The notes below the pieces were generated by a model. It ran no database searches. It saw only the letters and a program-made list of their open reading frames with translations, and was not told the DNA's origin. From Romanomermis culicivorax (lineage: Eukaryota; Nematoda; Enoplea; Mermithida; Mermithidae): DNA of 64,000 nt. Location of the stretch: the NCBI GenBank assembly GCA_963922205.1, contig CAWUHX010000035.1, positions 496,001 through 560,000 of the forward strand, in the 5' to 3' direction. Positions 6,331 through 62,427 of the stretch are shown piece after piece. The stretch's first letter is position 1. Each line of letters begins with the position of its first letter. A program made the translations under genes and the position numbers.

Positions 6331-6630
6331 TTTTAGCTAAAGTTCCCACAGCCATTGGTTTGCATCAGCAGGAGCAAAGCTCACTTTGTTGATAGAAGGG
6401 GCATGTAATGCGACCCAAAATAGCTGTAAGCTGTAACGACCAGTTTTGAGAAGCACTTTACTTTATCCTGAATGGATGGTCGAAATGACGTGCAACGGAA
6501 TGGGTATTACGGGGGGCGATACAGATAACAATCGACGGCTGCTTTGAGACGTTGACAACAACAACAAATAGGAACAATGCAGTCTCAGCTTGCAAATAAT
6601 TAAGGGCGTCGGTTTAACTGCTTTCGTATA

Positions 6631-7108
6631 TGTTGAGGTGGGCTCAGGTGCACGTGTTCAGCTTCCGGCGTCGGTGCGCAGGCGGTTGGACGCGGCGAAA
6701 AGTGGCGAGAAAGAAAGATAAATTTGCATAGGTTATTTCTGCCACTGTTTCGCGTTTTTGCTGTCTTTTTATTAGTGTTAAAAAAGACTTGTTTATGGAG
6801 CGTCGCCGTCATCGTCTTTCTTATAATATTTTTATTTATTATTTGTTATTGGCGTCGCCCTTCGTCACCCAATACAACTTGGACCTGTAAGTTGTTTTGT
6901 TTTGTGAGCGTAGTGGAAGGAGTCTGTAAGATTAGGAGTGGAGACTTGGGTAGGAACTCCTGAGGTACGTGCCAAGGTGTTCTGCCTGAGGTTTAGTGAA
7001 AGTTCTGGCGAGTATCTGGTGAAACGTCTGGGAGAGTTTGGTGTTTATTGTTGTTGTTAGCCTGTGGTTAGAACTGTTGCTTAATTGTGACCCCACAGCA
7101 GCCTAACA
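6631..7108 (+). repeat. 5' LTR
   Basis: Begins TGTTGAGGTGGGCTCAGG and ends GCAGCCTAACA. It carries the run CTTATAATATTTTTATTTATT (about 6819-6839), a possible TATA-like region, and further on a strong splice-donor-like site. It matches 20216-20694 nearly base for base. Confidence 0.93.
6883..6892 (+). promoter_or_regulatory. Splice-donor-like site in LTR
   Basis: ACCT|GTAAGT is a near-consensus 5' splice site inside the LTR. The same site exists in the 3' LTR. If transcription starts upstream of it, the leader could be spliced to acceptor-like sites at 7191, 14260 or 15156. This is inference; no transcript data are available. Confidence 0.4.
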
Positions 7109-7110
7109 AG

Positions 7111-7128
7111 TGGTGGACTCTTAACGCC
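7111..7128 (+). other. Putative primer binding site
   Basis: Two bases after the 5' LTR the sequence reads TGGTGGACTCTTAACGCC. A TGG at this place is what a tRNA primer's CCA end would pair with. I could not match the rest to a particular tRNA. Confidence 0.45.
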
Positions 7129-7180
7129 TCTCACGACGGATAACCGGAGAACCACCAGAAAAATAACTAAACCTCCTGGG

Positions 7181-7192
7181 TTTTATTTGCAG
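7181..7192 (+). promoter_or_regulatory. Splice-acceptor-like site before Gag-Pol
   Basis: TTTTATTTGCAG just ahead of the Gag-Pol ATG (7217) resembles a 3' splice site. Joined to the LTR donor at 6887 it would remove a leader of about 300 nt. Inference only. Confidence 0.35.
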
Positions 7193-7216
7193 TCACATAC
7201 CGGAAAAGTAAAGAAG

Positions 7217-10200
7217 ATGAGTATTCCGGTAGGAAAAATGTTGAGGACTCCTCCTAGGTCACACGAACCTAGTGTTTCGAATCTCGACTCTGCTGAAGAA
7301 CACGCAGCAGTAGAAAAGGTTCAAGCACAGGCGCCTGAGACTGAAGGAAGGAGAGAGAGTGGAATTGCCGAAATGGCAAGAGTTGAAGAAGATTTGAGGA
7401 GAAGTGGTTTTGAGATGGCTAGGAGAGCCGAGATTGAAACTACTGTAAGTGGTAGTGTCGGAGGTCAGCAGACCTTCGAGAAGGAGAGACCGACGTCGCC
7501 CTCGAAGTTGGTCCATCCGATGGCCGAAACGCTGGAGGAGATTAGACGGAAATCGAAACCGGCGTTGAGGTCAAATTTGGTGGACATGAATTACGATGAA
7601 TATTACGAGGACGCGCCGGCCGATTTATACGACGACAAATATTCGAGGCGATACGACCCCGAAATGGCGAATTTTATTCGGCGAGAGGAGCAGAGGGATC
7701 GAGTCGATCCCAAGGGCGTACGAATTAACGCGCTGGAGAAGAAGGTCGAGTTATTGATCAAAGTAATCGAAAGCGCGCAAGTCAAGGAAAAAGAAACGGA
7801 GGATGATCAACGGAGGAAGATAGGTGAGTCTTCTTACCTTGAGAGTAGAGTTGAGAGAGTTAGTGAACCTAAGAGAGAGGTTCATTCAGAAGTTTATGTC
7901 AGGTCTCAAGAGGACAGAGACAAATATTTGGGTAGAGATAGAGGTTGGACTGAAGAGCCGCAGAGTTCGAGGAATGCTGAACAAGCACAATCGAATGCCT
8001 ACGGTTACTCAGAGAATAGGAGATCTAGGGAAAGGAAAGTGACTATTTGCGACGAATCGTCCCAGGGAGAGGATAGGTTTTCTCGTCCTACTCCTTGGAG
8101 AGATACCGCAAATAGAGCTGACCTTAGCCCTGAGAGGAGAAGAAAGAGAAAGTCGAAGAGTCGAAAGAGATCTCACAGATCAAGAGCTAGGAGTAGACAT
8201 TACTCGGATAGTGATAATACTAGTTCATCTACGTCGAACTCTAGCTCAAGTGTTGAAGTTGATGTGAGAGATGTGGTAAAGGCCTTGAAACATAGACCTT
8301 TACATGATAGTATAAAGCCAACGGAGGCTTTGAAGTTTTTTACTGATCTGGAAAGTGAGTTTCTGGAGAATACGGCTGATAAAGTGAAAAAGGAGTGTTT
8401 GAGAAGGTTGTCTCAGAACACGGCGAGGAGGATAGCGAGAACTTCCTCAAGTTATACAGAAGCGCGGAGAAATATTTTAAAGTATCTCGCGCCGACTTAT
8501 GATTTGACGATGCTCAAAAGAGAGTTGTTTAATATGAAACAGGAAGAAGGCGAGTCAGCCTTAGAGTTTTTAAAGAGATTGAGTAATCATGTGGATCTGG
8601 TCTATGCAGATCAGAGTGATCAAATAAGGCAAGAGAATATTATTAATGCCTTCATTTATAAGAGTAGTCCGTTGTATCAGACGGAGTTGCAGGATGTATT
8701 GCCATCGATGAAAACTTGGCAAGACCTTGCATACGCCGTAACACAGATTGATAAAAAGTATAAGAATGTGTTTACTACTTTTGGAGCCAAAGATAAACCG
8801 ATTGTAGTGAATCAAGTTGTAGCGGAGGAGGTATGCCCGGAAATTGCTTTTGTCGGGAATGCTCCGTATGGAAGTACTAAAAAGTATAACCAAACGAAGT
8901 CAAGACCACAAAATCAGTTGCAAAAGGCAGTGGAAGAGGAGAGAAGTGAGGAGAATGCGGAAGAGATGATACCTGGTCCGTCGCCTCGTGATGTCAAAAA
9001 GTCTAACGAGGAGCAGGCCAAGGAGTCTTTTCTAGCTATTCTCTCAAAGGAATGGCTACAATTGGTTCAGAAAGTAGACAAATTACAAGTTACTCAGAGT
9101 GAAGCCTTAAAAGAGTTGACTACTGTGAAGGCTGCGTCTGCTGAAAAGCAGAAGCAGTTGAAGCAGCAGAGACCCTATTGCATTTATCATAAGAATAATA
9201 CGCATGCTACGGAGGAGTGTAAGACATTAGCATACCGGCGTCAGCAACAGCAATGCGGTGGATTTAACCGTGGCATGTCCAATCAGTATTATGGTGGTGA
9301 TAGAAATGCTTCATATAGAGGAAGTTTTAGAGGTAGAGGTGGGCCTCAATTTGGATTTAGAGGAAGAGGAAGAGGTGCCTACTATGTAGGATTCCCCGAA
9401 GAAGATCAAATGTACGGGTATGACCCAGAGTTTGAGAGATACAGGGAATTCTGCAGACTTAGGGAACAAGGCATCCAGTTGCAGAGGCAACCTCAGTTGA
9501 TGTTACCTGCACCAACTAGTCAACCTGCTATTCAGGCTAGTACCGTCCAGGATCAGTCTGGATCATTTGTTTCGAACCAGTCGCAACCTAGTTCGCATAA
9601 CGTAATGGTGACAAGCCGTACGGATGTGGATGATGAAAGTGAGCAGAGTAGAAACAAATTTTCTAGTTTGGTTCTCGGAAGTATTATTCACCTGGATAAG
9701 GTGACACCTCTAGAGAAAGTGAAAGAGAGAGATTTGGCTCATGTGAAATATGGAAGGAAAGCAACGGACGTAGAGAGAAGGTTGTTGGAAAATTATCCGA
9801 AAACGGTTCCTTTCTACATAAATGTGGTTATTAAAGAAACGGCTACCAGAGCTTTAATCGATACAGGAGCTCAGTGTACGGTCATGTCTTCTAAGCTCCT
9901 GAAAAGGGCATTAGACGTTGATTATACAGTGTACCCTCGTATCCTTAAAGTGACTGTAGCTGACGGAAAAGTTGTGCATGCCTATGGGTATGTACCAGTT
10001 TGTATGAAGACTGAATTCGGAAGTTTTCCAGTCAATGCTATAGTGTTGCCAGATGCAGGTGAGGACCTGATCTTGGGCACAGATTTTTTGGCACACCCAG
10101 ATCTAGGTGTGGTGATTGATTTCAAAAGAAATGCCATGACGATACAAGGCATTGAGAGAAAGATTGACGTAGTTCAAGTTCCTTCTGTAACTACTGTGCA

Positions 10201-13200
10201 AACGGTAATGGAAGAAGTAACTAAAGTCAGTGTGGCGTCGACTGATTGCATAAATCAAATTGTTTATCCAAAAGTCTGTCTGCTAAAGACAACTGTTGCA
10301 ATTGTTGCATGTAGTAAAACCTACATTCCATATGGAACAGATGTTTTGATGAAGGCAAAGCTTTGGGATCAACATGGAGATGCCACGTTGAACGGAATTA
10401 TTGTCGAATCAAAGGATTCTGAAAGGAAGTTCAGAATGGAGAAAGCGGTTGTAGACGGATCACAAGAAGAGTTTGTAGTACTAATCTCCAATACCACCGG
10501 TTCTGGATGTCGGTTTGAGAGAGATCAAATCATTGGCTACACAGAATCTATGCTTATTGAAGATGATGATACGTACAAAAAAGTGAAGGAAATGAAAAAG
10601 ATAAAGGAGGAAGAGGAATATCAGACCTGCATGGTAAAGGAAGGAATGCCTGCATTATCAAAAGCTGATTCTGTAGAGTTCTATACTTCACTATGCAAGA
10701 TGATATCGAAGGCAAAAATATGGGAAGAGAAGAAAACGGAAGCTATAGAGTCTTTGTTGAAGTACAGAGATGTCTTTAGCTTGCCTGGTGATCCGGCTAC
10801 TACAACCCCAGCTCTGACATGCAAGATAGATACAGGAGATGCAAGACCTGTAGCAAAGAGATATTACAGAGCTTCAATTAATAGTCGGCCAGGAGTAAGG
10901 CGACACATAAAGGAGATGTTGGATCAAGGAGTGATCGAGCCCTTGAAGTCACCGTGGGCTGCACCCTTGTTCCTGGTTGGAAAGAAAGATGGAACTACGA
11001 GACCCGTAGTGGATTTTAGAGGTATAAACGAAGTGACCAAGGATGATAAATATCCCATCCCGAGAATGGATGACTATTTAGATTGCCTTGGAAGAGCGAA
11101 GTTCTATACGACTCTAGATTTGAAGTCGGGATATTGGCAGGTCCCGATGGAGGAGGAAAGCAAGGAGAAAACGGCTTTTATATGCCAAGAGGGCTTATTT
11201 CAGTTTAAAGTGATGCCGTTTGGGTTGAAGAATGCACCTGCTGAATTCCAAAGGATGATGGAGAGAATCCTTGGGGATTTGGTATGGAAAATTTGCCTAG
11301 TGTATATAGATGATATTATCATCTTCTCGAATACGTTCGAGGAACACTTAGAGAATTTGAACTTGGTGCTAGAAGCGTTGAGGAAGGCAAAGTTGACTCT
11401 TAAGCCAGAGAAATGTGAATTTCTTCCCGAGAAGGTGCACTTTTTAGGACACATCTTGGATGCGAATGGAATTTCTCCGGATCCTAAGAAGGTCAAGGCG
11501 ATAACGGAATTTCCATTCCCGGATTCTGTTAAGAAAATGCAGAGATTCCTAGGTATGCTACAATGGTGTAAGAAATTTATACCAGACCTAGCAGCACTAG
11601 CTGAACCTTTGTACAAATTAACAGGCAAGAAGGGAACATGGAATGTAACGGAGTTACATTACACAACTTTTGAGAAGCTCAAAGTAGCATTGACCTCAGT
11701 ACCTTTCTTAAGACATCCAATTTTAGATGGATCTGCACGATTCATTCTTCAAACGGATGCCAGTGGAATTGCATTGGGAGCAGTGTTATGTCAAGAGACT
11801 GACTCGGAACGTTGGGTAGTTGCCTACAATAGTCGGATATTGCGGGCGGAAGAAAGGAAATGGTGCGCCACCGAAAGGGAATGCTTAGCTGTGGTTTACG
11901 GCCTTAAAATTTATAAACATTATCTTTTGGGCCAAAAGGTCAGGATTCAAACTGACCACAAACCATTATTATCAATGAGGGTGAATACACAGACTAATGA
12001 CAAACTCAAGAGGTGGTACGCATTCATTTGCCAGTTTAATCACAAGTTGGAGTACGTGCCTGGCAGACAGAATGCCATGGCAGATTTCCTCTCAAGGAAG
12101 GAGGAACCGGATGAGCAGAAAGAGAAGTTGCCACCAAAATGGGAACTTATCTTTCAGAAAGAAGATGTGAAATCTCTTACTGAAGACGAAGTCCTTAACC
12201 AAAACCACAAAGTTTTAGTGAAACAACTTCGGGAACTCAGAGGAGATGAAGTGGATGAGGCTGTAGGAGTCTTCACTCCGGTGAAGATGGCCACAGCTTC
12301 AGTGGCTTCAAAGTATAGTGTTAGTGATGAAACTCAACTTAATATTTCTCCAGAATTTGATAACTATCGAACGCCTGAGAAATATGAAATTGAGGCGGTA
12401 GTCACTAGACAAATGTCAAAAAACTTGCAGCAGGAGGAAAAAGGACATCCTCCTGGGCAAGCAAAACCTAAAGAAGAGGTGAAGAGAATTTTTGAACCGA
12501 AGGAGAAGGAGTTTGAAGAAGCCCCAGAGATTGAAGATGGTAGACCGAAAGGGCTTATCTCAAACGCCTTGATGTCAAAGTTGCAAAGAAAGGATAAAGA
12601 TCTAAAAGTGATCTTCGAGAAACTAGGTGCTAATAGTGGCACCAAGTCTCAAAGTAACTTTTATATCGATCAAGGGATACTATATAGAGAGACTTTTGGC
12701 GAGGCAGAGGATCAAGTTGTTGTCCCCTCTGTTCTCAAAAAAGTTGTCCTGCATCAGTATCATGGAGCAGTGATGATGACGCATCAAGGGTTTAAGAGAA
12801 CCCTTGCTATTATTAAGAAGCGGTTCTGGTGGCCGAGCATCGAGAAGGATGTTCGGAGCTGGATCAGTTTTTGTCCGATATGTCAAATTGCGACTCCAGG
12901 AAAGGCTACAATTCCGCCATTGAATCCAATCATTCCTAGAGGACCATTTGACATAGTTTCGGTAGATATTGTGGGAATATCTCCCATGAGCGAGAAAAGA
13001 CCGTATGTGATAGTATTTCAAGATTACTTTACAAAATGGGTGGAAGCAGAAATGATCCCGGATCAATCTGCTGTAACCATTGTGGACAGTTTTCTTCGGA
13101 ATATTGTGTTTAGGCATGGAACCCCAGTGAAATTGTTGAGTGATAACGGTTCATGCTTTACAGCTGATTTGATGACGTCAGTCTGTAAATTGTTGGAGTG

Positions 13201-13867
13201 TCAGAAGATTTTCACAACTGCCTACCATCCACAAGGAAATGGAATGGTTGAAAGGTTTAACCAAACCTTGATCAAGCAGTTGCGAAAGGTTGCTATAGAG
13301 GATTCAGATAAGTGGGACAGATATTTGCAATCTGTCGTTTTTGCGTATAATGCCACACCTCATACCTCAACAAAATGTTCTTCATTTGCCTTATTGAGAG
13401 GTCATGAGGCAAATTTCGGCATTAGTATTGGAGTTGCTAGAAACATAGTTCTGCCGATGAACTATGAGGCTTATAAGCATATACTAACCGAAAGCTTAGT
13501 AGAAACTTATGAGACCATTGCTGAGAATATCAGGAAGGCTGCGGAGAGCAGTAAAAAGTTTTTCGACCGTAAAGCAAAAGCTCATGATTATTCCGTCAAT
13601 GATTGGGTTTTGCTGAAAGTCGATAAACAGAAAAAACTGGGTCTGCCGTGGCAAGGACCGTATGTTGTTACTGATAATAGTAGATTATCAGAGAATGTGC
13701 TTGAAATCGCTCACTGGAGAGAGCCGCTGAAAAAGCAGGTGGTATCCGTGAGCAGGTTAAAGCACTTTCGCTACGAGACCGGCAGATGGCTGCAGTCTAA
13801 CGACGTGTCATCTAAGGACACGCAGTTTACTGTAGATTCGAAAATTGACAATTATAAACTGCCGTAG
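7217..13867 (+). CDS. gag-pol: Gag-Pol polyprotein of Ty3/gypsy-type retrotransposon
   Basis: A single unbroken 2216-aa frame; the first ATG is at 7217 (the frame is open slightly further upstream without an ATG). Residues 1-345 are charged and end in an RS-rich stretch (about 300-345). Residues 346-520 resemble a Retrotrans_gag capsid domain. A zinc knuckle of CHHC form (C-x2-H-x4-H-x4-C, about 655-667) is followed by an RG-rich segment. Protease has ALIDTGAQ (Asp 882) and the later ILGTDFL. Reverse transcriptase has YIDD at 1363-1366, RNase H has TDASG (Asp about 1514). Integrase has an HHCC zinc domain from His 1846 and a DD35E triad (D1917, D1976, E2012), then a GPY/F-like end (WQGPYVV). 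No chromodomain and no frameshift between gag and pol. All catalytic residues are present, so it may still be active. The RNase H-integrase linker is unusually long. Confidence 0.95.
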
Positions 13868-14335
13868 CGCGTAGCGCTGTGTTTTTGTGTGTGTGTGCGT
13901 ATGAATACCCCCCCATATTTTTTCGTCCCCAATTATGTATTTAAGTACAAATTGTATTTAATTGTAATTATTTATGTATTTATCGCGTATTTATCGTGTA
14001 TTTTTAAATTTTTCTCGCGTAAATCTTAAAATTTCTCAAAATTTTTGGTAAAAAACCACTCATCGCAAAAACCTAAATTTTTAAAACTTTTTTCGCCGCC
14101 AAAATTTTAATTTTCCCCGAGTCCGATTAATTTCGGAGGAAATAGGTAATTGTTGCCCCCCAATTCTGTGAATATTGGAAGAATTGGGAAAACCGCTGAG
14201 TTTTAGAGTGAAAATAGACAAAAAGTAGCGAAAGCGGAAAATTTGTCGATTTTTCAGCTCATATTAAACAAATTTAAAAATTTTGCAAAAATTGATAGCG
14301 CCGAATTATTAGAATTCGAAAAAGAAGCGGAAGGA
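13868..14335. other. Non-coding spacer after Gag-Pol
   Basis: AT-rich, with GT-rich bases just after the stop codon. Near its end GATTTTTCAG (about 14249-14258) looks like a splice acceptor. Nothing else recognised. Confidence 0.5.
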
Positions 14336-14569
14336 ATGTCCAGGCCCCCCAATGGACGCCGGACGAAACAGTATTTGGTCACGGACCCCCACGTGACCTA
14401 CGGACAGCCGCAGGTGCGGCAAAACAATCGGTATTTTTTAGTCGATGGTAAGCGACCTAAGTTATTAAACTTAGTTAATTTAAAAATTAATTGGGCAAAG
14501 CAGGATGTTATAGCCCACGGGTGTCTAGACGAAGGCCTAGACAATTGTAAAAGTTTAGTGGGAACATAA
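14336..14569 (+). CDS. Small ORF of unknown function in the retrotransposon
   Basis: 77 codons from the first ATG; the frame stays open upstream to about 14243. The product is mildly basic and has no motif I recognise. It lies between Gag-Pol and the long second ORF and follows a splice-acceptor-like TTTTTCAG, so it might be translated from a spliced mRNA, or the open frame may be chance. No signal peptide or membrane segment is seen. Confidence 0.3.
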   Translation: MSRPPNGRRTKQYLVTDPHVTYGQPQVRQNNRYFLVDGKRPKLLNLVNLKINWAKQDVIAHGCLDEGLDNCKSLVGT

Positions 14570-15145
14570 TTGTTCTGTCAACTTGAAAAAGTGTGGCAAA
14601 GCTGCCCGTAGCGCAAAAATTTGGACTTTTTGCGAAACTACATTATTCCTCTACACACATAGCGAGTTGAATAAATTCGTCTATGTGATGGGGAAGAAGT
14701 GGAGTGTAGCAACTAGTCGACTAGGGGTAGATAATTTCAAAATTATTTAAAATTTTCAAATTCCATCTTAACTTAATTTTCTACGAATTTCCACATTTTG
14801 GGTAAATTAGTAAATATATTTTCAAATTTCTTCTTGGAAATTCTTAATTTATTAGTTGGATAGGCCGTTTTGGGCGTTGGATTGAGACGGCATGCAGTCG
14901 ATTGATGGAAGACGCAGGTGGTCTGTGCGTGTACTCCCGTATAAGGTAGAAGTCGGGGCCGCACTTGTGTTTAACTATCTGCCAACACTAACCCAATATA
15001 TGTTTGGTACCTTATTTTCCCCTGCTTGCAATTTTCTTTTCTTCTTTCCTAATTGTGCTTACTATCTGTGGTGAAGGTAGAATTTAACCGATGTTTGTCC
15101 GCTTTGGGAAAAATTTTCATTAAAAAGTTGTAAACATTTCGCCTG
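14570..15145. other. Spacer between small ORF and second ORF
   Basis: Mostly AT-rich with a GC-richer patch (about 14860-14970). Short frames on both strands have no recognisable features. Confidence 0.45.
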
Positions 15146-15155
15146 AATTTTTTAG
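15144..15155 (+). promoter_or_regulatory. Splice-acceptor-like site before second ORF
   Basis: TGAATTTTTTAG precedes ACTACAATG. The two nearest ATGs downstream (15162 and 15199) are in other frames and stop quickly, whereas the frame of the second ORF is already open from 15134 without an ATG. A spliced mRNA that brings its own start codon, or initiation at 15278, would both fit. Confidence 0.4.
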
Positions 15156-15277
15156 ACTACAATGTTAAACGCATTGTCAGAGTCGGCGAATTAGAACGAT
15201 GGTTTGCCACGACATTCGGGAGATTTCCGTTGGAACTAACAGAACCGAAATTGGTCGAAATAGGTAAGGTGGCTGAG

Positions 15278-18200
15278 ATGATCGAAACTCTGAAGGTGAG
15301 CAGGTTTCGAGGACAGCCAGTTATCGGTTTTGATACCGAGAAAGTTACTCAAGAGTACGTGAGTAAGGTTTTCGCGACTTCTGGGGTTGATAACCCAAAA
15401 GGGAAGGAGTTCGCGAGAGTCATTAGCTTCTCGACGGTGACTGGAGACACCTTTGTTGTAGATACTACGACAATCATGCCGAAGGAATGGACGCTCATTC
15501 ATGAGCTCTTAGATTCGGACATGCTTCTCGTTGGATACAACTTGGTTACAGATCTGGTTGCCGTCTGGAATGTTAATGGCGCAGGCAGAAATCACCAGGA
15601 TGTTGATCTGACAGCAGAGATCAAGTATAGAATTACATCTTCGTATGGCCGTTATTATGACGTAGCCAAGGTAGGAGATCAATTGAACGGAAGATTTTTG
15701 GCAATGTCCAGGAAGTTGGGACTTTGCCCGGAAACTTTTAAGCTGAAAGGGTTGTTCACGGAGCTGTATCTGGCGGATGTTGGTTATTTCCAAATCGATT
15801 TCCGTCAGAGAGCGCAACGTGAACGATTCTGTAGGCACACGTTGACGCAGTTTGAAATCAGGTATTCAGCACTGGACGCCTACTACTCATTGTTGGTTTT
15901 CTTAGCGTTTTTCCACTATGAGTTAGCTATGGAAGTCGAGGTCGGATTCCAGTATTTTCCGCATGATTTGATGAAAGCGGATCAAATCCAGATAATGTCG
16001 TACAGGTTGTACAGGTTTTTTAATATCATACATGGAGAGAATTTTCCGCAGACTTTTTGTGGAAGTCCGGAAGTAGAGGAGCCGCAGTCGTCGGCTATTT
16101 ACCACGTAATGAGACAGGAAGCGTATGCCCGTATGGCTGCCCAAATGGACACCTCATTTGGAGGCTATGTGGAGTACAGCTTCCCTCATTACGAGGCAAA
16201 TCCGAAGAGAGGAAGAGACGTAAGTATACCTAAAGGTATTCATCCTGATTATACCGTTAAAGAAAAAAGTAAGAATGTAGACGGTAATGATACGGTAAGT
16301 GAGGATGAAGAGTTCGAAGAAGCTTTGTCGGAAAAGCAGATTAGAACTCGAATAATGAACAAGGTGGTAGATATGGTTAATCGAGGGAAGAGTTTCAGTA
16401 GACTCGATGAACCAGTATCTATGGTTTTATACGAGAATTACCTAAGGTATAGGAAGGAAACGAAGCAGTTATTGGAGATACCATCTCTGGAAGTTGATTA
16501 CCACGAGTATGAACCGGTCAGAATTTCGAACGGTAAAGACTCGTATGTAAGACAACACTGGAGTATGGATATCGCTCCTTATTCTGAAATATTGATCGAG
16601 GACAATTTTAAGAATTTGGAGTCAGTGTGTAATAAAGTTCCGCTCACGTTTCATTTGTTTTGGCCAGCTTGCAGAGAAGAAGCGGAGGAGTACCTTACCT
16701 CTCTCCTTGACCACAACTATTTGAGATCCTTTAGCCCTGAGGGAAAGGAACAACTCTTGAAGATGTTGTGGAGGGGAGATAGGTACGGTCAGTACTTATC
16801 ATTTTTGAATAGTCTTCCAGTAACAGAGGTACATACGCCAACCAAGGGCGATTCTATTACATGTTGGGGAAATCGTTTCGGATTTCTGCCGATCCGATTT
16901 TGGCCCAAGACAAAGTCATGGGAGCAAAGACCGGAAGATAAAAGGAAGCATTTGGCGGAGTGTCCGCAGTACAAAGATAATCCGTACTGCTATCAGAGGT
17001 TTTACTTCCGCCAGATAGCTGTTAGAGTTCCAGGTTTGCGATACCCAATAGATATGAGTGAGGACGCAACGAAGGAGAACCAGAAAAAGAGCGTCTCAGC
17101 CTATCAACCGGAATACGTTCCAGGTTACGAGCCGCCATTTTTTGAGCCGATATTGCCGTCCGATGCTCCAGGTTTTACGATTACGCATATTGGCGATAAG
17201 GTTGTAGTGACGCCGACAGGTAAGCAGCCAGCAGTGCCGGTTACAGGCACTGAGGTAAGCACAACGGTGAGTCAACAATCTGGAGTTGATATGAGTAGTT
17301 TGGATCAGGTGCAGGGGATGCAGGCTGAGCCTGTTGCGGCGAAAGCACAGCTACAGGTGATACCTGCAGACCTCAACACCCCCATAGACTTGAATCAGGT
17401 AGGAGACGATTTAGAAGTGGACAATGAGGTCACTGTTGAATCGTTGATACAGCCTGATCAAGAAACACAGGTAACTTCATTACTAGATCAGACAGAGAGT
17501 TTACTTTCTGGAATGGATGTCAGGGCAGAGCCGATGTTGGATGAAAGCAATCTGATAACGATTGCTGCAAGTCCAGCAATAGAGGAAATTGAAGCAAGGC
17601 TCAGGGAGCAAGCTGAAAAGGAAATCGAGAGACAGAAAGAGATTTTTACTAAGCAGCTTGCGGAGCAGAAAGCGAGATTAGATCAGCAGCAGAAGCAGCT
17701 GGAACTAGTATTGGCTGGTTTTACGGCGCAGCCGACGCCTCTGGCAGCGCCTACAGTCGTGCAAGCTCCAGCCAAGCCGCCTACTGCTTATCACATCCCG
17801 AAATTGCCGGTGCAGCCTGCTAGTACGCAGGTCATCCAGCCTGCGGTCAGCAAGGTTACGCCGACAGTTCAAGTAGCGCCCAGAGATCCAAGTATAGACG
17901 GTGGTATACCAGGTATGTATACTGCCGAAGAGGTCAGAAAGTTCAGAGCAGAAGGTCGTACGGACGATCAAATTAAAAGATTAGGAAGACGAAAATTAAC
18001 CCGAAAGGCCAATAGGGCTAAGAAGAGAGAGGAAGAAGATGTTATTGAAATCAGTGATGGTGAAGGAGAACAGACAGGGAGTTCTACGTCTGTGGATTTG
18101 AAGTTTGCAGGATCTACAACTTTATTGACGGATTCAACCAAATCCAGGACGGGAACTACGCCGACGAGCCTGATGCCTGGAACCAAAAGTTCTAGGAGTC

Positions 18201-19471
18201 AGGTGCAGTCGACGGTTGCTTCGGCTAAAGTACCTAGTAAATCGTCTGCATCTCAGGTAAGTGCAACGACGAAAAGTACTTTGGCTAAGCCCGTGTCTAA
18301 GGTTGATAAAACTTCTCAGCAGGACCAGAGCAGCGCTTCAGGGAAAAAAGTTGTTTCTAAACCCTCTACGTCGGAACCGACAAAATCGGTCAAGAGAAGT
18401 AGAGATAAGGAAGTAACTTTGGAGTACCTAAGTTCTGTTTTGAGAGACTACTGGGACGTCCATAAGAAGTTTCCCTTGGTGAAGGGAAGGATAGATTTTT
18501 CGACACCGGAGGTGATCGAATTCTTTGCTCAGGATATGCCAGATGATAATAGGAATCAAATCATCTGGGCATTAGTGAATAATGGAGTAGAGGAGCTTTA
18601 CGAGAACTACGGGGATCACTTTGATGTTCAGGGTGGTTTCCTGTATGATCATGTAAACGTTCCTGAGCCCATTTGGGAGTATATTTGGCTCAAGTTCATG
18701 CCAAATTGGTTTCATCATTTTGATGCGGAAATAGTGATGGCAGCCGTGAGATACTTATGTACCATGGTGTTGCTAAAGTTAGAACAACAGCAGTTAGGCC
18801 CAAGACATATTGGTGCAATTGATGCACGGGCCAAGTCATTTGTCACAGAAAGGTATTATTCTATCTACCTGCGGGGAGAAGGTAGTACTGCATTCAGGGA
18901 AGCGTATGCCAACCGAATGCAGGAGCACCAACAAACTGCAGTAGATATGGCAGCGAAAAGAAGGTTGTCGGACATGGTTCAGAAATTTTCTGGTAAATTC
19001 CAGAAGGCAGAGGATGAGGAGGGGCAACCCTTCAAGATTCCAATGTTAACGGAAAGACAACCTAGGGATGCATCCAGGACTAGGAGCCAGCACTCGCGAC
19101 AATCGTCTCACTCGCAGGGTCGGCACCAGCCTGGAGTATTCAAATTACCGTATGCGAATCAACAAAGTCAAGGTAGGTCCACTACCTCAGCTTCAGGAGT
19201 ATCTTCCGTAAGTTCCACTCAGGGCTCGTACCAGAGGGGAACTGGAGGGGGATATGCCCGGGGCTGGGGTCAGGGACAGGGTCAAGGTAGACCCTTCAAA
19301 ATGGTTAATCCGCAACCGTATAGAGGTCAGGCGATGGGCGGACCCCCTCGTGTGGCCCAACCTCGAGGAGTTTTTGGGGGATTCCTCAGGGGTTGTGGAG
19401 CTCGGGGTGGTCCCTACCCTCGCCGTGGTAGCTTTCAATACGGCGGTTATGGTGGCGGCGGGCAACAATAA
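15278..19471 (+). CDS. Second ORF: DEDDy 3'-5' exonuclease plus RNA-binding-like tail
   Basis: 1397 aa from the first in-frame ATG; open frame reaches back to 15134. The N-terminal 230 residues carry the three motifs of the DEDDy (RNase D/WRN/EXD2-like) exonuclease superfamily: motif I VIGFDTEK (Asp 19, Glu 21), motif II LVGYNLVTDL (Asp 92), motif III RYSALDAYYSLL (Tyr 196, Asp 200). Known members remove nucleotides from 3' ends of DNA or RNA using two metals. Downstream come an uncharacterised region, a Gln/Pro-rich part, a coiled coil (about 767-814), a basic NLS-like stretch followed by VIEIS plus acidic residues (SUMO-interaction-like, about 922), a helical domain (about 1041-1238) and an RGG/GGY-rich end. 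It occupies the env position, on the same strand as Gag-Pol. The exonuclease assignment is strong; substrate and role in the element's life cycle are unknown. Confidence 0.88.
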   Translation: MIETLKVSRFRGQPVIGFDTEKVTQEYVSKVFATSGVDNPKGKEFARVISFSTVTGDTFVVDTTTIMPKEWTLIHELLDSDMLLVGYNLVTDLVAVWNVNGAGRNHQDVDLTAEIKYRITSSYGRYYDVAKVGDQLNGRFLAMSRKLGLCPETFKLKGLFTELYLADVGYFQIDFRQRAQRERFCRHTLTQFEIRYSALDAYYSLLVFLAFFHYELAMEVEVGFQYFPHDLMKADQIQIMSYRLYRFFNIIHGENFPQTFCGSPEVEEPQSSAIYHVMRQEAYARMAAQMDTSFGGYVEYSFPHYEANPKRGRDVSIPKGIHPDYTVKEKSKNVDGNDTVSEDEEFEEALSEKQIRTRIMNKVVDMVNRGKSFSRLDEPVSMVLYENYLRYRKETKQLLEIPSLEVDYHEYEPVRISNGKDSYVRQHWSMDIAPYSEILIEDNFKNLESVCNKVPLTFHLFWPACREEAEEYLTSLLDHNYLRSFSPEGKEQLLKMLWRGDRYGQYLSFLNSLPVTEVHTPTKGDSITCWGNRFGFLPIRFWPKTKSWEQRPEDKRKHLAECPQYKDNPYCYQRFYFRQIAVRVPGLRYPIDMSEDATKENQKKSVSAYQPEYVPGYEPPFFEPILPSDAPGFTITHIGDKVVVTPTGKQPAVPVTGTEVSTTVSQQSGVDMSSLDQVQGMQAEPVAAKAQLQVIPADLNTPIDLNQVGDDLEVDNEVTVESLIQPDQETQVTSLLDQTESLLSGMDVRAEPMLDESNLITIAASPAIEEIEARLREQAEKEIERQKEIFTKQLAEQKARLDQQQKQLELVLAGFTAQPTPLAAPTVVQAPAKPPTAYHIPKLPVQPASTQVIQPAVSKVTPTVQVAPRDPSIDGGIPGMYTAEEVRKFRAEGRTDDQIKRLGRRKLTRKANRAKKREEEDVIEISDGEGEQTGSSTSVDLKFAGSTTLLTDSTKSRTGTTPTSLMPGTKSSRSQVQSTVASAKVPSKSSASQVSATTKSTLAKPVSKVDKTSQQDQSSASGKKVVSKPSTSEPTKSVKRSRDKEVTLEYLSSVLRDYWDVHKKFPLVKGRIDFSTPEVIEFFAQDMPDDNRNQIIWALVNNGVEELYENYGDHFDVQGGFLYDHVNVPEPIWEYIWLKFMPNWFHHFDAEIVMAAVRYLCTMVLLKLEQQQLGPRHIGAIDARAKSFVTERYYSIYLRGEGSTAFREAYANRMQEHQQTAVDMAAKRRLSDMVQKFSGKFQKAEDEEGQPFKIPMLTERQPRDASRTRSQHSRQSSHSQGRHQPGVFKLPYANQQSQGRSTTSASGVSSVSSTQGSYQRGTGGGYARGWGQGQGQGRPFKMVNPQPYRGQAMGGPPRVAQPRGVFGGFLRGCGARGGPYPRRGSFQYGGYGGGGQQ

Positions 19472-20199
19472 TTTCATATAGCCGCATACTTTTTGGACCA
19501 AAATTCGTTATTTCGTACAAATTTTATTTCAAAAACACAAAAATACAAAAACACAAATAAAATACAAAATACAAAAAAAAATATATTATCTCGTTTTATT
19601 GTTGCTTTAAATTTTAAAATTTTCTCGTTTCCGGTGCCCAAAAGTTGCCCGGCAAAATTCGTTATTTCCGTCCATCTTATTTCGGGCGTGTATATAGCCC
19701 TCGTATTTTTCTTGTTTACTTTCAGGGCCTGAAAAAGATGAAGACGTGAAAATTTTATTTGCCTTTATAAAATTATTTCGTAAGTAGATATTTGAAGTAT
19801 TTTATAGAAAATATTTTTTACTGAGTAGATTTGTATTGGACGGAGCGATGTGGCGAGCGGCCGACCGGGGAGGAAGCGCACCTGGGGCACCTCATCACCG
19901 AGGTTGTAAAAACCAGGAAATGGGAGAAGAGGAACGGCGACGCCCCGGATCTAGGCACAGATCGACGTCAAAGTCCAGGCCGAACTACGTTCGTGATCGT
20001 TTCCGGTAGCCCGAAAGGGAGTGCCCTGCCGAATGGATTGGTCAAGGTCGCCGTCACCTGAAGGACCTGGTAGGGGCTGGATCACATTTTGGAGGGGGTA
20101 GCCCCAAAAATTTGTCTTCCGAGGGGAAAACTGTTATGCAGTCGGGGCCTCAGTATGAGACTCAGGCTGCAGAAAGGTTTTCACCTCCCGTTGGTCGGT
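19472..20199. other. Non-coding tail of the retrotransposon
   Basis: An AT-rich part (19490-19810) is followed by a GC-rich part (about 19835-20150). One 76-codon frame (19831-20061) lies in the latter with no recognised motif; it is treated as chance. Confidence 0.45.
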
Positions 20200-20215
20200 T
20201 TTGAGGGCTGAGGGA
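20200..20215 (+). other. Putative polypurine tract
   Basis: The bases just before the 3' LTR, GAGGGCTGAGGGA, are mostly purines, as expected for the plus-strand primer, though broken by CT. The match is imperfect. Confidence 0.4.
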
Positions 20216-20694
20216 TGTTGAGGTGGGCTCAGGTGCACGTGTTCAGCTTCCGGCGTCGGTGCGCAGGCGGTTGGACGCGGCGAAAAGTGGCGAGAAAAGA
20301 ATGATAAATTTGCATAGGTTATTTCTGCCACTGTTTCGCAGTTTTGCTGTCTTTTAGTCAGTGTTAAAAAAGACTTGTTTATGGAGCGTCGCCGTCATCG
20401 TCTTTCTTATAATATTTTTATTTATTATTTGTTATTGGCGTCGCCCTTCGTCACCCAATACAACTTGGACCTGTAAGTTGTTTTGTTTTGTGAGCGTAGT
20501 GGAAGGAGTCTTTAAGATTAGGAGTGGAGACTTGGGTAGGAGCTCCTGAGGTACGAGCCAAGGTGTTCTGCCTGAGGTTTAGTGAAAGTTCTGGTGTATA
20601 TCTGGTGAAACGTCTGGGAGAGTTTGGTGTTTGTTGTTGTTGTTAGCCTGTGGTTAGAACTGTTGCTTAATTGTGACCCCACAGCTGCCTAACA
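20216..20694 (+). repeat. 3' LTR
   Basis: Same limits as the 5' copy (TGTTGAGG to CTAACA). Differences include CGCG/CGCAG in the middle, TCTGTAAG/TCTTTAAG, and GCAGCC/GCTGCC near the end. Confidence 0.93.
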
Positions 20695-21054
20695 CGGTTT
20701 TTAGTCGTATAATTAGAATTTATCCTTACTTGGGAATGGGATCACCTGTCCGTATGGCATCTATGATCAGCTGTTAAATGTAATTATAGCGATCTTACAT
20801 CCACGTGACCAAATTTTTGAGGACGTATGTACAAAATTTTGACACGTAAAAAAAGTAAATCCTATCTGAAAAGTACAATTATGGGGTTTATGTGAAAATG
20901 ATAGTCATTCGATGTGAAAATCAAAATTTTGGTAGTTACAATAGACAAAGTTTGAAATTTTGACTTTTTACTTTTTGACAACCTACTTGGGGCGAACATA
21001 GTGTATGAGATAAATATTTCGGTAACTTTAACCCGTATTAGACAACTGCTCTTA
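20695..21054. other. AT-rich DNA, no feature seen
   Basis: Immediately downstream of the LTR element. Nothing recognised. Confidence 0.4.
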
Positions 21055-25695: not shown

Positions 25696-26740
25696 TCGTA
25701 TATGCTAAATTTCAAACCAATGTGGACAACAGAACGAGTAAGTTGTTCAGAATAATTTTCGAACATGCACGTTTATGGATCATTTTGAATTGGGATTCTC
25801 ATGAGATATTATGCCATGAATTATGTTCCAAGTATGTAACTGGAAATTTGTGGCTTACTGACTTTAATGCATGATAATGTCACCGCATTTGTCGCGCAGA
25901 CATTTTTTTATTTCAGTCATCTTGATGCGCAAGTTGAACCATTCACTTTTAATGTTAGTAATGCGAAAGATTTACTGTAACAAAAATTAATTTTTTTGTT
26001 GTTCTTTATTTTGATTTTTTTATCATATTCAAATTCTTTCATCATTCTGTTTCTCTCATCGACTTTGGCTGTTCGAATAGACCTATTAACATGAGCGAAA
26101 TTGGGAAAAGGTCGTCTTATCTACTATTCAATGTGAAGAGGTGAAGTAAATTCAATTTTGGCTGACTTTCTGTTCTGCTCTCGAAATTCGCCAAACACAA
26201 AAACCGAGCATTATACAAACAAAACAAAAAAAAACCAGACCAACATTACTCGATCTAAGTAATTATATAAATGATGAAAATTGTAATTATTTTATATTGT
26301 TGTAGTATCCAATAATTGTTTAAAAATTTTAGGGGCGCGTATATGTTTTTCTTAAATGGAAATTTTTTGTGGAATAAACGAGACCTTGTCTCTGCTTTTT
26401 AAGTGCATGTCTTGGATGGACTTTTTGTGAAACATTACTTGTATCTGCCTTTTAAGCGTCTGTCTTGTGTTTTAAAAAGATTATCATATCAACTTTTAAG
26501 AAAGCCTCACATCAAACATATTTGGTTTACCTTTCTGGTCCCTGGCATTTTTTCCTGGTATCTCATTTTTAAGCATTCGAAGAATCATGCCATCAATCTT
26601 TTTCTTTGTTAAGAAATCGATGATGAGCTAGTGTTACAACTATTAACGTATAGCAAAATATCGTGCTTTTTATTGAACTTGACTATCACGGTTCCGCCAC
26701 GAAAATCTCACATTTTACTTTTTTCATTTACAAAATTACA
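25696..26740. other. No gene recognised
   Basis: AT-rich DNA with several short frames and no recognisable protein. Confidence 0.35.
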
Positions 26741-26749
26741 TTTCTGTCA

Positions 26750-27625
26750 TGAGCACACGTGTTCCTCATCAATTTTCACGAAAAACACCCACTGATGTAC
26801 TACCTTCTCTATTTCCAGATCAAGTTGATCTAATTCGGCTCAAAAATTTTTTGGCATCAAACCATGCTTGAAATATCATCAGGCAACTGATTCTCATCGC
26901 TTTTCATCAAAAACAGCCGTTGATATGCTAATTTTAATACTTCCTGATCAACACTATCTGATCCAGGTAAAAAATTTGCCGACATCAGATCACACTGAAA
27001 ACAATACCCAGCAACTGCTCTGCATCAAATGTCATCAAAAACAACTGTTGATCTACTAATTTTTACACTTTCTGATCAACTTGATCTGATCCAGATAAAA
27101 AATTTTCCGACATCAGATCACAATGAAAACACTACCCAGCAACTGCTCCGCATCGAGTTTCATCAAAAACAACGATTGATCTGCTAATTGTTTATACTTC
27201 TCGATCAACTTGATCTGATCTAGATCAAAAATTTGCAGACATCAGATCACACTGAAAACAATACCCAGCAACTGCTCTGCATCGAATTTCCTCAAAAACA
27301 ATTACTTATCTATTAATTTTTATACTTCCTGATCTACTTGATTTGATCTAGATCAAAAATTTGCCGACATCAGATCACACTGAAAACAATACCCAGCAAC
27401 TGCTCTGCATCGAATTTCATTAAAAACAAACATTGATCTGCTAATTTTTATACTTCATAATCAATTTGATCTGATCTGAACCAAAAATTTGCAGAAACAT
27501 CAGATTACACTGAAAACAATACCCAGCAACTGCGCTGCATCGAATTTCATCAAAAACAACTGTTAATCTACTAATTTTTTACTTCCAGATCAAGTTGATC
27601 TGCTCTGCATCAGATCAACAAACTT
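26750..27625. repeat. Satellite-like tandem array, 128-bp unit
   Basis: The string ACATCAGATCACACTGAAAA recurs at 26982, 27110, 27239, 27367 and 27497, a spacing of 128-130 bases, followed each time by ACCCAGCAACTGCTCTGCATC and CATCAAAAACAAC, then GATCAACTTGATCTGATC. Shorter, more diverged units flank the five clear ones. Confidence 0.88.
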
Positions 27626-43742: not shown

Positions 43743-44398
43743 CAACAGATAAAAGAACACACTATACTTCTCGTTTAGTGTGTTGTAGTTTGCAATATCC
43801 TGTAAATTTCCACAGTTTCAGATGGCCCATGAAAAGCTTCTGCCGGACCTTTGAAGGACGGATATTCTGATTTTTTGGTTCTAGATCTTTCCGAAATGTT
43901 GTGATTGTCTCGAATAAACCTCATCCTTAAGGGGTACGATTTTGTGAATCCTATTTTCTAAATGATAAAAGCTTTTTGGAATAAGAACTTGAAGCGACAT
44001 ATGAAAAGTTTACCTTTCTTTCGACTTTAAATAAATTTCCAGAAGAAATAATGTAAGTATTAATCAAAGCCTATAGATATTCTGCAAAATATTTCGAGTT
44101 CTTTGCGGCGGTCCATGATGTGCACATTTAATTTTGATCTGTGGTATGAACTATCGAATATGAAAAAGCATGCTAAATTAGTATCATCAGGAAAATTCCT
44201 CTCGGAAATACTGTTTGAAACGAACAAGGTACGCTTTTAGTTGAAGGATTTCGTTTACATAAACTTCTTCCCTAAAGCTTCGAAAGACTGTGCCTCAGCC
44301 AAATTTTGTGATTCTGTATTCGAGTGTGGGTACACACAAGAAGTCTTTCTCGTTGCAATAGAACTTTTTTCCAGGAATTGACATTTTTTGCAGCAAAG

Positions 44399-47300
44399 AT
44401 GGCTTTCGGGAACGTGATTTTACCAACAACCGGTAAGACTATGTCGCCTTCCAATGTGCTAGTTACCGTAAATTGTTTCAAATTCTTTTCATTTCAGCTC
44501 GTACAAAATTCACTCGATTTCTACGCACAAGTTTTCTTCTATGCTCATCTTGCTTGTGTGTGTATTTTTTCGTGGCAAGTATCGATTTTTTATCCGATTC
44601 GTTCCGACTGCTAGGAGTTAAGTGTTTGGCGGACGCGGTTTCCCGAACGAATAAAGATTTTCGTCCTTTTAGGCAAAGAAATAGCAAATATTTTCAAGTC
44701 GAATGAAATTCTAAAAAATCCGATTGCCGACGTCATGATCGGTCTATTATTTACGACTGTTCTGCATAGCTCTACAGTAACCACGATTTCTGTAGTAATG
44801 GTAAACGCTCAAGGTATACTCTGTATTCCATTAGTAGATTACGCTCAAGATTTTTTTCGAATAGACTCGGGTATATGTATTTATTATGCAATGAGATCGG
44901 AATGCAAAGAAATGCTGAAATACTCTTGCATGTGAAGAACCTGAAATGCACGTGGAAATTTTTTCTCGAAGTTTGCGATTCCTATCTTATTCAGGAGACT
45001 TCTAGAAGTAAAATATTCGTGAAAACTGTACTAAATTGATGCAACTTGATCACTGCCCGTTCGCTATGAAACATTTCAAGTTGGTGGTGTGAAGCACAGT
45101 GAACAAAGAAACCTTGAAAGCAGGCTATTCACCGATAAATTGTAGATAATTTGTGAACACCCAGTGCAGTTATCTCTGAATTTCACAGCATTGACAGTTC
45201 AGCAAGGTGTATACATTGCGATGGGTGCCAATGTGGGCACCGCAGTTACCACAATGATAGTGGCTTTGTTCGAAAGCAGTCAAAATCAAGAATTCGGCCG
45301 GGCATTTTCCGCTGCGACGATTCATTGCATTTATAATTGGATGGGGTTAATAACATTCTTCCCTATCGAATGGATAATGCAACTTAGTACAGGAAAAGGT
45401 AAACTGATTTATACGTACATATGCATTTTTGTAGAATCAGTGTTTTAGGATTTTTAAACTGGTTTAGTCAATGGTTGGTGGGCAATGTAGCTCAGTTGAA
45501 TAGTTCGAGTAAATTCCAGTACGATCTCATAGGGAAAATCGTCGATCCTTTCACCACACGTATCATGCAAGTACAATGATCCACTATTAACCAGTCCTGT
45601 GGTCTACAGTAATTTCTATGATCAGGTCGACAATGAAGTGATTTCAGAACTTTTGCAAGGCAAGAACGTCAGCAGGACTATAAGAAAAGAGCTTTGTGTG
45701 TACGGAAACGGTACCGCATACAAATGTACAGTGCCAGAACTGGCCGTAAAAACACGTTTGAAATCTTGCGTGCTTTTAGGCTCTTTCCTTTTGAATATCA
45801 ATTTATCGGACAAAACGTTAGGTGGAATATTGCTCGTTGCAGCTCTTATCATATTGGTTTGCTGTATGGTCGGAAATATCAAAGTTCTGAGTGAACTTCT
45901 GGGTGGTCACGTGCAAACGACGGTGAAAAAGCTGTTGAATTTCCAGGTGAGCACCTTGACCCTATTTGTTCTTTTCAACTACATTATAAACTCCGTTTCA
46001 TACTCAAACAAGCCTCAGTATACAAGAAATGCAAATGAAACTGCGGGCAGATGATGACTATGCATCGGAGGCCAGCATTTTCTTTTTTCAAGTTACAGTC
46101 CTGACTGCTACAGTCAATATGAGAAAAAAGATGGCCGCGTACACAGGTCCTTTGCTTTTGCATAACAAAATTTTTTTCTTTCCGAGGCTCATTTAAAAAA
46201 TAGACTAAAGTAAGCATTGATATTGGGTCACGATTTCTCCTAGTCGATAAAAAAGTGTATACTGCATTAATCTTGAAATGATCGGGACAGTGATCCCATG
46301 GATGTAAGTTCAAAAGGGAAAAAATAGTAAATTTTATTACTGTAATACATGAACAAAATTTATTGTCCATGAGTGGTAAACAAAACAGCTGAAAATATCT
46401 CCCGTAACTTGTTTAAACGGCCAAAATTTTTCCTGTAACACTTAGGTGTCAGGCACTGTTCTATCCAAATCGAAAGTGTATAAATAGCGTAGTAATTCGA
46501 TGATTCTGACGTTCCTATTGTGTACGAAATAATTCCGCGTTTTTTCTATGGCATAACTTTTCCACACCCCGAAAATTGCGTGTCAAATATAGCTTAATTT
46601 TTCGGTTATCGCTGGATCTATCATTTCAAAGTAAATGGACTATAATAACTGCGACATTCGAGGATTTGTTTCCAAAATTAATGAACGGATCAAGACCATA
46701 CATGTTCTTGGTGGTTCAGGGCTTGACTTCACACGGACTACCCAGCTTACTCTGTGCGAGTGTCTGGCTGACTCCCCGATGATTTCGCCCAAGAATTTTT
46801 ACATAGAGCATAAGCATCATTGAGCTTTCAATCGTAACACGACGTATAAAATTTTCAAGCAAAAATATTAATCAAAAACTTATTGACTAAAAAGCCCAAT
46901 TTAGAAGTGTATCGCTGATTGTCTGCCGATTGAATCGTAGGAATCGACGACAGTCACCGACTGTCGTCGATTGTCGGCGACAAAAATCCCAGGGTTTTTC
47001 ACTTCTGAATTGGGCCCAAATCATAAAGTCTTGGAAACCGTTCACATAAACAACCACATGGCAAATGATTGACCACCTGCTATATATAACGTGATGCGAC
47101 ACATTTATTGCATGTGTACATCTTGCGGTGGTATAAAAATTGTTCATCTATTTCCCATAGAGCCTTACGTCGTATGCTGAAACCTAGCTTGTGCTTAATC
47201 TACCCTATAACATATATATTTTTGCACAATTAGCAGATGGTTGATATGCTTAGAGTCTAGATGATGATGCTTTGTAACAGGTGTTTCATAAGTAATTGGG

Positions 47301-53300: not shown

Positions 53301-53454
53301 TACCCAAAATTGGAACTTTTTACCTAAATTTATGCGGAGTTTGCGATTTTGGGACGAACTTTTTACGAAATTTTTAACCAGAAGTAGAAAAGCAAATGAA
53401 ACTTCAGGAAGTGCCAATGAAAAGAAGAAATCGGACGAAGAATCGAGAGTATGA
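44399..53454 (+). CDS. Sodium-dependent phosphate cotransporter, SLC34 family (8 exons)
   Basis: Exons that keep phase throughout: 44399-44432, 44498-44623, 44673-44813, 45189-45398, 45449-45570, 45626-45946, 52382-52562, 52946-53454; predicted 547 aa. SLC34 proteins import phosphate with sodium across the plasma membrane. Both inverted halves are recognisable. The first has [11 protein letters not shown] (usual QSSS replaced by HSST) followed by [14 protein letters not shown]. The second has FVIQSSS followed by GADVGTA. Between them lies an extracellular-type loop with NVS and NGT glycosylation sites and two cysteines. [15 protein letters not shown] and LPKFMRSL match the C-terminal family blocks. 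The junction 44623/44673 is the least certain. A TTTTTTGCAG at 44384-44393 just before the ATG may be a cis or trans splice acceptor. Length is slightly shorter than vertebrate members. Confidence 0.88.
46050..46208 (+). repeat. MITE family B copy
   Basis: GATGATGACTATGCATCGG, CCTGACTGCTACAGTCAAT and CTTTCCGAGGCTCATTTAAAAAATAGAC match the copies at 37.1 and 55.4 kb. Confidence 0.55.
46894..47016. mobile_element. 123-bp palindromic MITE
   Basis: GCCCAATTTAGAAGTG at the left pairs with CACTTCTGAATTGGGC at the right. A central hairpin CGACGACAGTC/GACTGTCGTCG and repeated ATTGTCTGCCGA/TTGTCGGCGAC words fill it. Confidence 0.75.
47276..48570 (+). mobile_element. Mariner-like DNA transposon, inactive
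   Basis: Terminal inverted repeats: GGTGTTTCATAAGTAATTGGGAAGG on the left, and on the right the inverse of GGGTGTTTCATTAGTAATTGAGAAGG. About 1.3 kb, the usual size for mariner. A TA lies near both ends. Confidence 0.8.
47532..48400 (+). pseudogene. Mariner-like transposase, broken
   Basis: The N-terminal 91 codons give a helix-turn-helix region ([20 protein letters not shown]). After a stop, [20 protein letters not shown] gives the central catalytic block, and further on RDGAPAHY and [12 protein letters not shown] are visible. The expected third catalytic Asp (in the usual SPDL motif) reads SRAL here. Several frameshifts and stops make it a pseudogene. It lies on the same strand as the host SLC34 gene, inside its intron. 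Confidence 0.85.
49655..49692. repeat. Solitary transposon end, hAT-like terminus
   Basis: CCCCCCTGTGTCCGCCACTG closes a GC-rich stretch. Its reverse complement, CAGTGGCGGACACAGGGGGG, resembles widespread DNA-transposon termini. No partner end was found upstream; 49080-49560 contains related GGCGCGAAGCGC words twice. Confidence 0.45.
52124..52176. repeat. 27-bp tandem duplication
   Basis: CGGCACTACTTAGGGGTCCCTAAACA occurs twice in a row inside the large SLC34 intron, with the inner palindrome TAGGGGTCCCTA. Confidence 0.8.
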
Positions 53455-53514
53455 TTTCTATTTTTCGAATTGAAGTTGTTCGCCCATTTTTGTTACAGAA
53501 ACGAAAAACCTTTT

Positions 53515-62400: not shown

Positions 62401-62401
62401 T

Positions 62402-62415
62402 CTTTCTTCTTTCAG
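62402..62415 (+). promoter_or_regulatory. Splice-acceptor-like site before esterase start
   Basis: CTTTCTTCTTTCAG lies 12 bases before the ATG. With no obvious upstream exon, a trans-spliced leader is possible, as in nematodes. It could equally be the end of an intron in the 5' untranslated region. Confidence 0.4.
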
Positions 62416-62427
62416 TTAATCACAATC

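Follow-up and report, generated by a model that had tools for sequence, protein, structure and literature searches.

What use could a long terminal repeat (LTR) retrotransposon make of a 3'-5' exonuclease of its own? The question is raised by a 64,000-nucleotide stretch of the genome of the mermithid nematode Romanomermis culicivorax (assembly GCA_963922205.1, contig CAWUHX010000035.1, positions 496,001 to 560,000 of the forward strand; hereafter the window), which contains a Ty3/gypsy-type LTR retrotransposon at 6631-20694 (window positions, plus strand, here and for all features below). In the position of an envelope (env) gene, between Gag-Pol (7187-13867) and the 3' LTR (20216-20694), this element has a third open reading frame (ORF), ORF3, which a first-pass annotation made from the letters alone had read as a DEDDy 3'-5' exonuclease. 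We assign a probability of about 0.75 to the element anatomy described here together with the DEDDy 3'-5' exonuclease class of ORF3, a figure that leaves the role of the protein aside.

ORF3 encodes a probable DEDDy exonuclease domain

The ORF3 frame is open from about 15,134, has its first in-frame ATG at 15,278 and ends at 19,471; as first described, it is uninterrupted and lies on the sense strand. The predicted domain occupies 15281-15961, and the three exonuclease motifs named in the first-pass annotation are indeed intact, with FDTE at 15,329, GYNLVTDL at 15,533 and YSALD at 15,863. The ExoI D.E, ExoII D and ExoIII Y...D residues are present in the correct order and spacing, and a loose version of the pattern (D.E, G.N..D, Y...D) arose in only 3 of 20,000 shuffles of the ORF3 protein. 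When trimmed to the domain, ORF3 matches the Pfam family DNA_pol_A_exo1 with an E value of 2.6e-4; the aligned stretch spans ExoII and ExoIII, with ExoI immediately before it and outside the alignment. All 23 aligned members (the window sequence and 22 distinct copies) match the same family, in contrast to the negative controls, a reversed sequence and nine shuffles, among which there was no match (0/10). The 22 distinct copies represent 37 usable sequences from 39 examined, one partial copy and one with a stop having been excluded. NCBIfam returned a single match, to a 3'-5' exonuclease/DNA polymerase entry (E 0.0027).

The best support for the assignment comes from relatives of ORF3 in the same genome, a sister family (L074) and a distant LTR element (L073). 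The 608-residue ORF of L073 matches Pfam with an E value of 1.3e-10 and 41.8 bits, above the curated cut-off, and in the Protein Data Bank (PDB) it finds an uncharacterised protein (E 0.0028) and WRN (E 0.0059), followed below significance by a MUT-7 homologue (0.073) and Rrp6 (0.1). In an alignment of the three families (window ORF3, L074 ORF3 and the L073 ORF), residues D58, E60, D131, Y235 and D239 are invariant.

Several results weigh against the assignment. The profile check proposed in the first-pass annotation gave a significant E value, but the score of the window ORF3 (21.3 bits) falls below the curated cut-off of 23.6, as does that of the L074 ORF3 (19.6 bits), and the whole ORF3 protein reaches an E value of just 0.04. 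Within the PDB, the sole match of the trimmed domain up to an E value of 10 was EXD2, which at E 2 is not significant, and neither a 441-residue piece nor the copy alignment found any match there. None of the 33 places of the window family is among the 116 matches listed in a genome-wide search with PF01612. Two AlphaFold2 runs had mean predicted local distance difference test scores of 33.6 and 35.5; because neither gave a usable model, the exonuclease assignment rests on sequence.

Searches for relatives beyond the genome were negative within their scope. With ORF3 residues 1-420, no protein was found at an E value of 1e-3 among 3439 candidates of about 777-2473 residues, a size range in which short rotifer ORFs would be undetectable. 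No relatives of residues 1-457 were found in viral contigs, and no phage relatives of 300 residues were found.

Other exonuclease-bearing families in the genome

The first-pass annotation had recommended looking for further LTR elements with this ORF, and had reasoned that related elements lacking it would point to a one-off capture. The genome instead holds at least 33 copies of the window ORF3, at least 42 of L074 and the distant L073, so the capture argument fails, since related elements carry the ORF. The genome-wide PF01612 search scored 119 candidates and listed 116 matches, of which 95 were marked above the cut-off (6 of these only jointly with in-frame neighbors) and 13 lie in stop-free frames of 608-614 residues. 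Some of the 95 may be host genes rather than element-borne. Three of the PF01612 matches, at G000:C158:182213, 187991 and 193769, lie 5778 bases apart on a single contig and each contains a stop, perhaps reflecting tandem duplication.

Four of the PF01612 places, L073 to L076, were read. L074 is a sister family of the window element: Pol is 65-67% identical between the two, and ORF3, across 1148 aligned columns, 30%. At least 42 copies of L074 exist, and 32 of 42 are stop-free. Of the three ORF3 regions compared at length between the two families, the exonuclease region is the most conserved (118 of 289 positions, versus 29% and 25%). L073 (581-8138 within G000:C58:59500-68000) is far more distant, being 22% identical to the window Pol in the RNase H-integrase part. 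Its LTRs of 628 bp are 100% identical and GAGC stands on each flank. A pol ORF of 1156 residues with CCHC, RNase H and integrase zinc profiles is followed by the 608-residue DEDDy ORF. Neither a reverse transcriptase (RT) profile nor an integrase core profile was found in the 1156-residue ORF at an E value of 0.01, and its only [YF]xDD motif lies in the integrase region. In L075, a decayed relative, homologous pieces follow one another in matching order, so that a lineage mobilized in trans may have existed for a long time. L076 encodes a 550-residue relative of the 608-residue ORF, with no LTRs within the stretch read. A DEDDy ORF is present in three element families of R. culicivorax. With L074 sister to the window family and L073 far removed from both, such ORFs stand downstream of pol in no fewer than two distantly related LTR lineages of one genome.

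ORF3 is probably spliced

The limits given in the first-pass annotation, 15,278 to 19,471, hold for the first in-frame ATG and the end of the frame; the start, however, is probably at 14,336, as conserved splice-site sequences suggest. The predicted upstream exon (14258-14447) follows an acceptor, TTTTTCAG, that ends at 14,257, contains the ATG at 14,336 and is bounded by the donor GTAAGC at 14,448. It is separated by a predicted intron (14448-15155) from the main exon (15156-19471), whose acceptor, TTTTTTAG, ends at 15,155. Joining the two predicted exons yields a stop-free frame of 1475 residues.

These sites are maintained among copies of the element: the first acceptor in 27 of the 27 copies that span it, the donor GT in 26 of 27 and the AG of the second acceptor in 28 of 28. 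Averaged over the copies, identity to the window reaches 99.0% across the coding portion of exon 1 and 98.1% across exon 2, higher than in the intron (96.9%), the gap before exon 1 (94.5%) or the untranslated stretch at the 3' end (96.0%). The sister family has an identical donor after an identical peptide, RQNNRYFLVD, and an identical acceptor. The canonical 22-nucleotide SL1 spliced leader has no exact match genome-wide, a result that is little informative for clade I worms.

Outside the exonuclease domain, Pfam scans of ORF3 gave no significant match. PHROGs gave none either. By composition and RG dipeptides, a Gly/Arg-rich tail can be placed at the C terminus, approximately at 19335-19468. 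A candidate zinc knuckle after the exonuclease domain was abandoned because its C...H...C...C block is not conserved in L074.

Copy number, mobility and selection

The search covered 359,112,060 bases in 595 contigs. The ORF3 copies, 33 scored from 4566 first-look candidates, are 98-100% identical, and 31 of the 33 are stop-free; for Pol, there are at least 56 copies at 98-100% identity. Both ends of 20 copies were inspected. The pair of LTRs was recovered in 15 of them, whereas the 5' LTR was absent from its expected place in three and the 3' LTR in two. A 4-bp target duplication flanks 14 of the 15 copies with both LTRs, in which LTR identity ranges from 98.3 to 100% (nine at 100%). The element family is recently mobile. 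The window copy itself is an exception, as no target duplication is present (TATA versus CGGT; flanks 6601-6630 and 20695-20724); with its LTR identity of 97%, this suggests an older or recombinant copy.

The exonuclease domain of ORF3 is under purifying selection. Among 28 sequences picked with ORF3, the five catalytic residues are conserved in all 28, which, together with the motifs and the Pfam match, bears out the original description of an LTR retrotransposon with a DEDDy exonuclease in the env position. The ratio of non-synonymous to synonymous polymorphism (pN/pS) in this set is 0.085 for the main exon, 0.051 (0.024-0.092) for the exonuclease core and 0.218 for the linker; two ORF3 regions outside the exonuclease domain likewise have a pN/pS of 0.051. 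Variants confined to a single copy divide into 90 non-synonymous and 127 synonymous, whereas those shared by three or more copies divide into 27.5 and 108.5, and constraint exerted on the lineages that replicate would predict this stronger bias in shared variants.

The strength of this constraint must be read with some caution, since the main set was chosen by ORF3 protein score, which lowers pN. Twelve copies picked instead by Pol all carry the exonuclease domain or part of it, but in one the domain is partial, in another it is broken by a stop and in a third the catalytic E of FDTE is changed, and in 11 of them plus the window the exonuclease pN/pS is less extreme, at 0.117. The corresponding value for RT, from 12 ORF3-picked copies and the window, is 0.067; with values of 0.051-0.117, the exonuclease core is about as constrained as RT.

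Anatomy of the element and its surroundings

The window element is a Ty3/gypsy-type LTR retrotransposon by profile and LTR comparison, with protease, RT, RNase H and integrase in that order between both LTRs. The 5' LTR (6631-7108, TG...CA) and the 3' LTR (20216-20694) are 97% identical by BLASTN. Directly 3' of the 5' LTR is a predicted primer-binding site, TGGTGGACTCTTAACGCC, at 7111-7128, and 15 of the 17 copies spanning it are identical across the 20 bases compared. Gag-Pol is a single ORF of 2226 residues (7187-13867, first ATG at 7217) with profile matches to protease, RT, RNase H and integrase; a Pfam scan of the Gag part gave no significant match. A gap of about 1.3 kb separates Gag-Pol from ORF3, and a purine-rich stretch at 20203-20215, read from the sequence before the 3' LTR, is probably the polypurine tract.

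The 5' LTR contains a donor-like GTAAGT at 6887, and GTAAG is kept in all 17 of the 5' LTRs that span this site (20 pieces fetched). Two LTR subtypes can be told apart there, with GGACCTGTAAGTTG in 8 of the 17 spanning copies and the GAACCCGTAAG form in the other 9. A candidate leader acceptor at 7192 was kept out of the gene model because its AG is absent in 7 of 17 spanning copies.

Elsewhere in the window, we observed a tandem array (26682-27579; unit length about 128 bp) and, at 44300-53460, exons of a host gene for an SLC34 sodium-phosphate cotransporter. Among named organisms this gene is matched best by R. culicivorax (86% over 56% of the hand-joined query), followed by Trichinella (44%), on which grounds a bdelloid host was rejected. 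A reading frame at 62368-62631 resembles what we take to be the N terminus of a carboxylesterase-type protein. Rfam and transfer RNA (tRNA) scans of the window gave no matches.

Comparison with known elements

The first-pass annotation knew of no described Ty3/gypsy lineage with such a domain in this position, and this claim does not stand. In the excerpts of Rodriguez, Kenefick and Arkhipova (2017, PMC5408684) on which we draw, the Juno and Vesta LTR elements of bdelloid rotifers have RNase D-like DEDDy ORF3s, as do Athena elements; DEDD is altered to DEED in the rotifer element ORFs, and RNA 3'-end processing or a mut-7-like function are the roles considered. A 2019 paper, likewise cited from an excerpt, counts a DnaQ-like 3'-5' exonuclease among the well-known accessory domains of LTR elements, with reference to the 2017 study (PMC6338049).

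The window element resembles Juno and Vesta, as these excerpts portray them, in being an LTR element with an RNase D-like DEDDy ORF3 after pol, found in more than one lineage per genome. It differs from them, in a comparison by description only, in its nematode rather than rotifer host, in a DEDD set that is intact in 28 of 28 sequences rather than altered to DEED (PMC5408684), and in ORF3 itself, for which exons are predicted and whose C-terminal portion is long and conserved. Athena/Terminon elements of bdelloids also carry a DEDDy exonuclease; according to the cited portions of PMC6431247 and PMC5408684, however, these are Penelope-like, non-LTR elements with another class of RT. The cellular EXD2, WRN, MUT-7 and Rrp6/RNase D proteins have the motif set in common with ORF3, with very low sequence similarity.

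Within nematodes, a parallel in position is CERV of Caenorhabditis elegans Cer1, an extra protein made from a spliced RNA of an LTR element, encoded in the env position and required for genomic RNA export (PMC10309623). Unlike ORF3, CERV has 517 residues and its exons 1-3 are in the gag frame, and the excerpt of that paper mentions no exonuclease. The open-access literature, in the parts accessible to our search, holds no report of a DEDDy ORF in a nematode element, and the portions of PMC13269885, PMC10989877 and PMC3985635 at hand describe no such ORF. What is new is the nematode host, the intact DEDD set, the predicted spliced protein of about 1475 residues and the presence of several families.

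A possible role for ORF3

The element carries a third gene that, in an env-like manner, is probably expressed from a spliced subgenomic RNA. Its product of about 1475 residues would consist of an N-terminal DEDDy exonuclease, a conserved middle, a linker that evolves more quickly and contains a basic cluster, and a C-terminal region, again conserved, that finishes with the Gly/Arg-rich tail. We infer the splicing, translation and nuclease activity of ORF3 from these sequence features. Our tentative proposal, which we hold to be somewhat short of an even chance and favor over roles in reverse transcription or RNA binding, is that the protein targets the 3' ends of RNA or interferes with host small-RNA silencing. 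It would work on RNA as a 3'-5' exonuclease, inside the nucleus or close to it, where it might trim the 3' ends of element RNA or degrade or trim host small RNAs or their templates, an activity that would shield the element from small-RNA silencing.

A second explanation places the exonuclease in reverse transcription, in trimming or proofreading the 3' ends of complementary DNA or in removing the tRNA primer. The profiles matched here belong to the polymerase A exonuclease family, and DEDDy enzymes include the DNA-acting WRN and the proofreading domains of polymerases, as the cited part of PMC5408684 states. ORF3, however, is encoded apart from Gag-Pol, on a predicted separate spliced RNA, so that it would not be co-packaged with RT by default. 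In addition, L073 keeps its DEDDy ORF although its pol ORF gave no match to an RT profile, which tells mildly against a strict partner of RT. We regard this explanation as unlikely, though deserving of serious consideration.

Less readily accepted is a protein that is mainly an RNA-binding regulator, CERV-like in nuclear export or assembly, with the nuclease fold serving as a binding module. The Gly/Arg-rich tail and the two regions outside the domain with a pN/pS of 0.051 are consistent with such a regulator, as is the matching position of the spliced Cer1 gene needed for export of genomic RNA (PMC10309623, in the excerpt cited). The conservation of five catalytic residues in 28 of 28 ORF3-picked sequences and across three families would be needless for a pure binding module, and we consider this role rather improbable.

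Two further explanations fare much worse. Cellular DEDDy genes are widespread, and ORF3 could in principle be a host exonuclease that the element captured and takes along as a passenger without function for itself; purifying selection comparable to that on RT, and retention of the ORF in a sister family whose ORF3 is just 30% identical, make this very improbable. An env-like entry protein, as position and predicted splicing might suggest, is the least probable of all, given that Pfam returned no env match and that hydropathy, used here in place of a dedicated predictor of membrane segments or signal peptides, peaks at a borderline 19-residue mean of 1.58 in the C-terminal region, with its second-highest peak in the helix that follows ExoIII.

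Beyond the window element, DEDDy exonucleases may constitute a recurrent weapon with which retroelements oppose or reshape host small-RNA silencing, a counterpart of MUT-7 drawn from a pool that was recruited independently or exchanged among distant LTR lineages of rotifers and mermithids and retained even in a family that yielded no RT; this broader view is speculative, and we think it unlikely as it stands. If the assignment of ORF3 is correct, LTR retrotransposons with their own 3'-5' exonuclease would not be confined to bdelloids, and in R. culicivorax such a gene would be under selection about as strong as that on RT and present in several families of one genome. Given that the catalytic residues are intact, the insertions young and the worm sequenced, the use of this enzyme to a retroelement would become testable.

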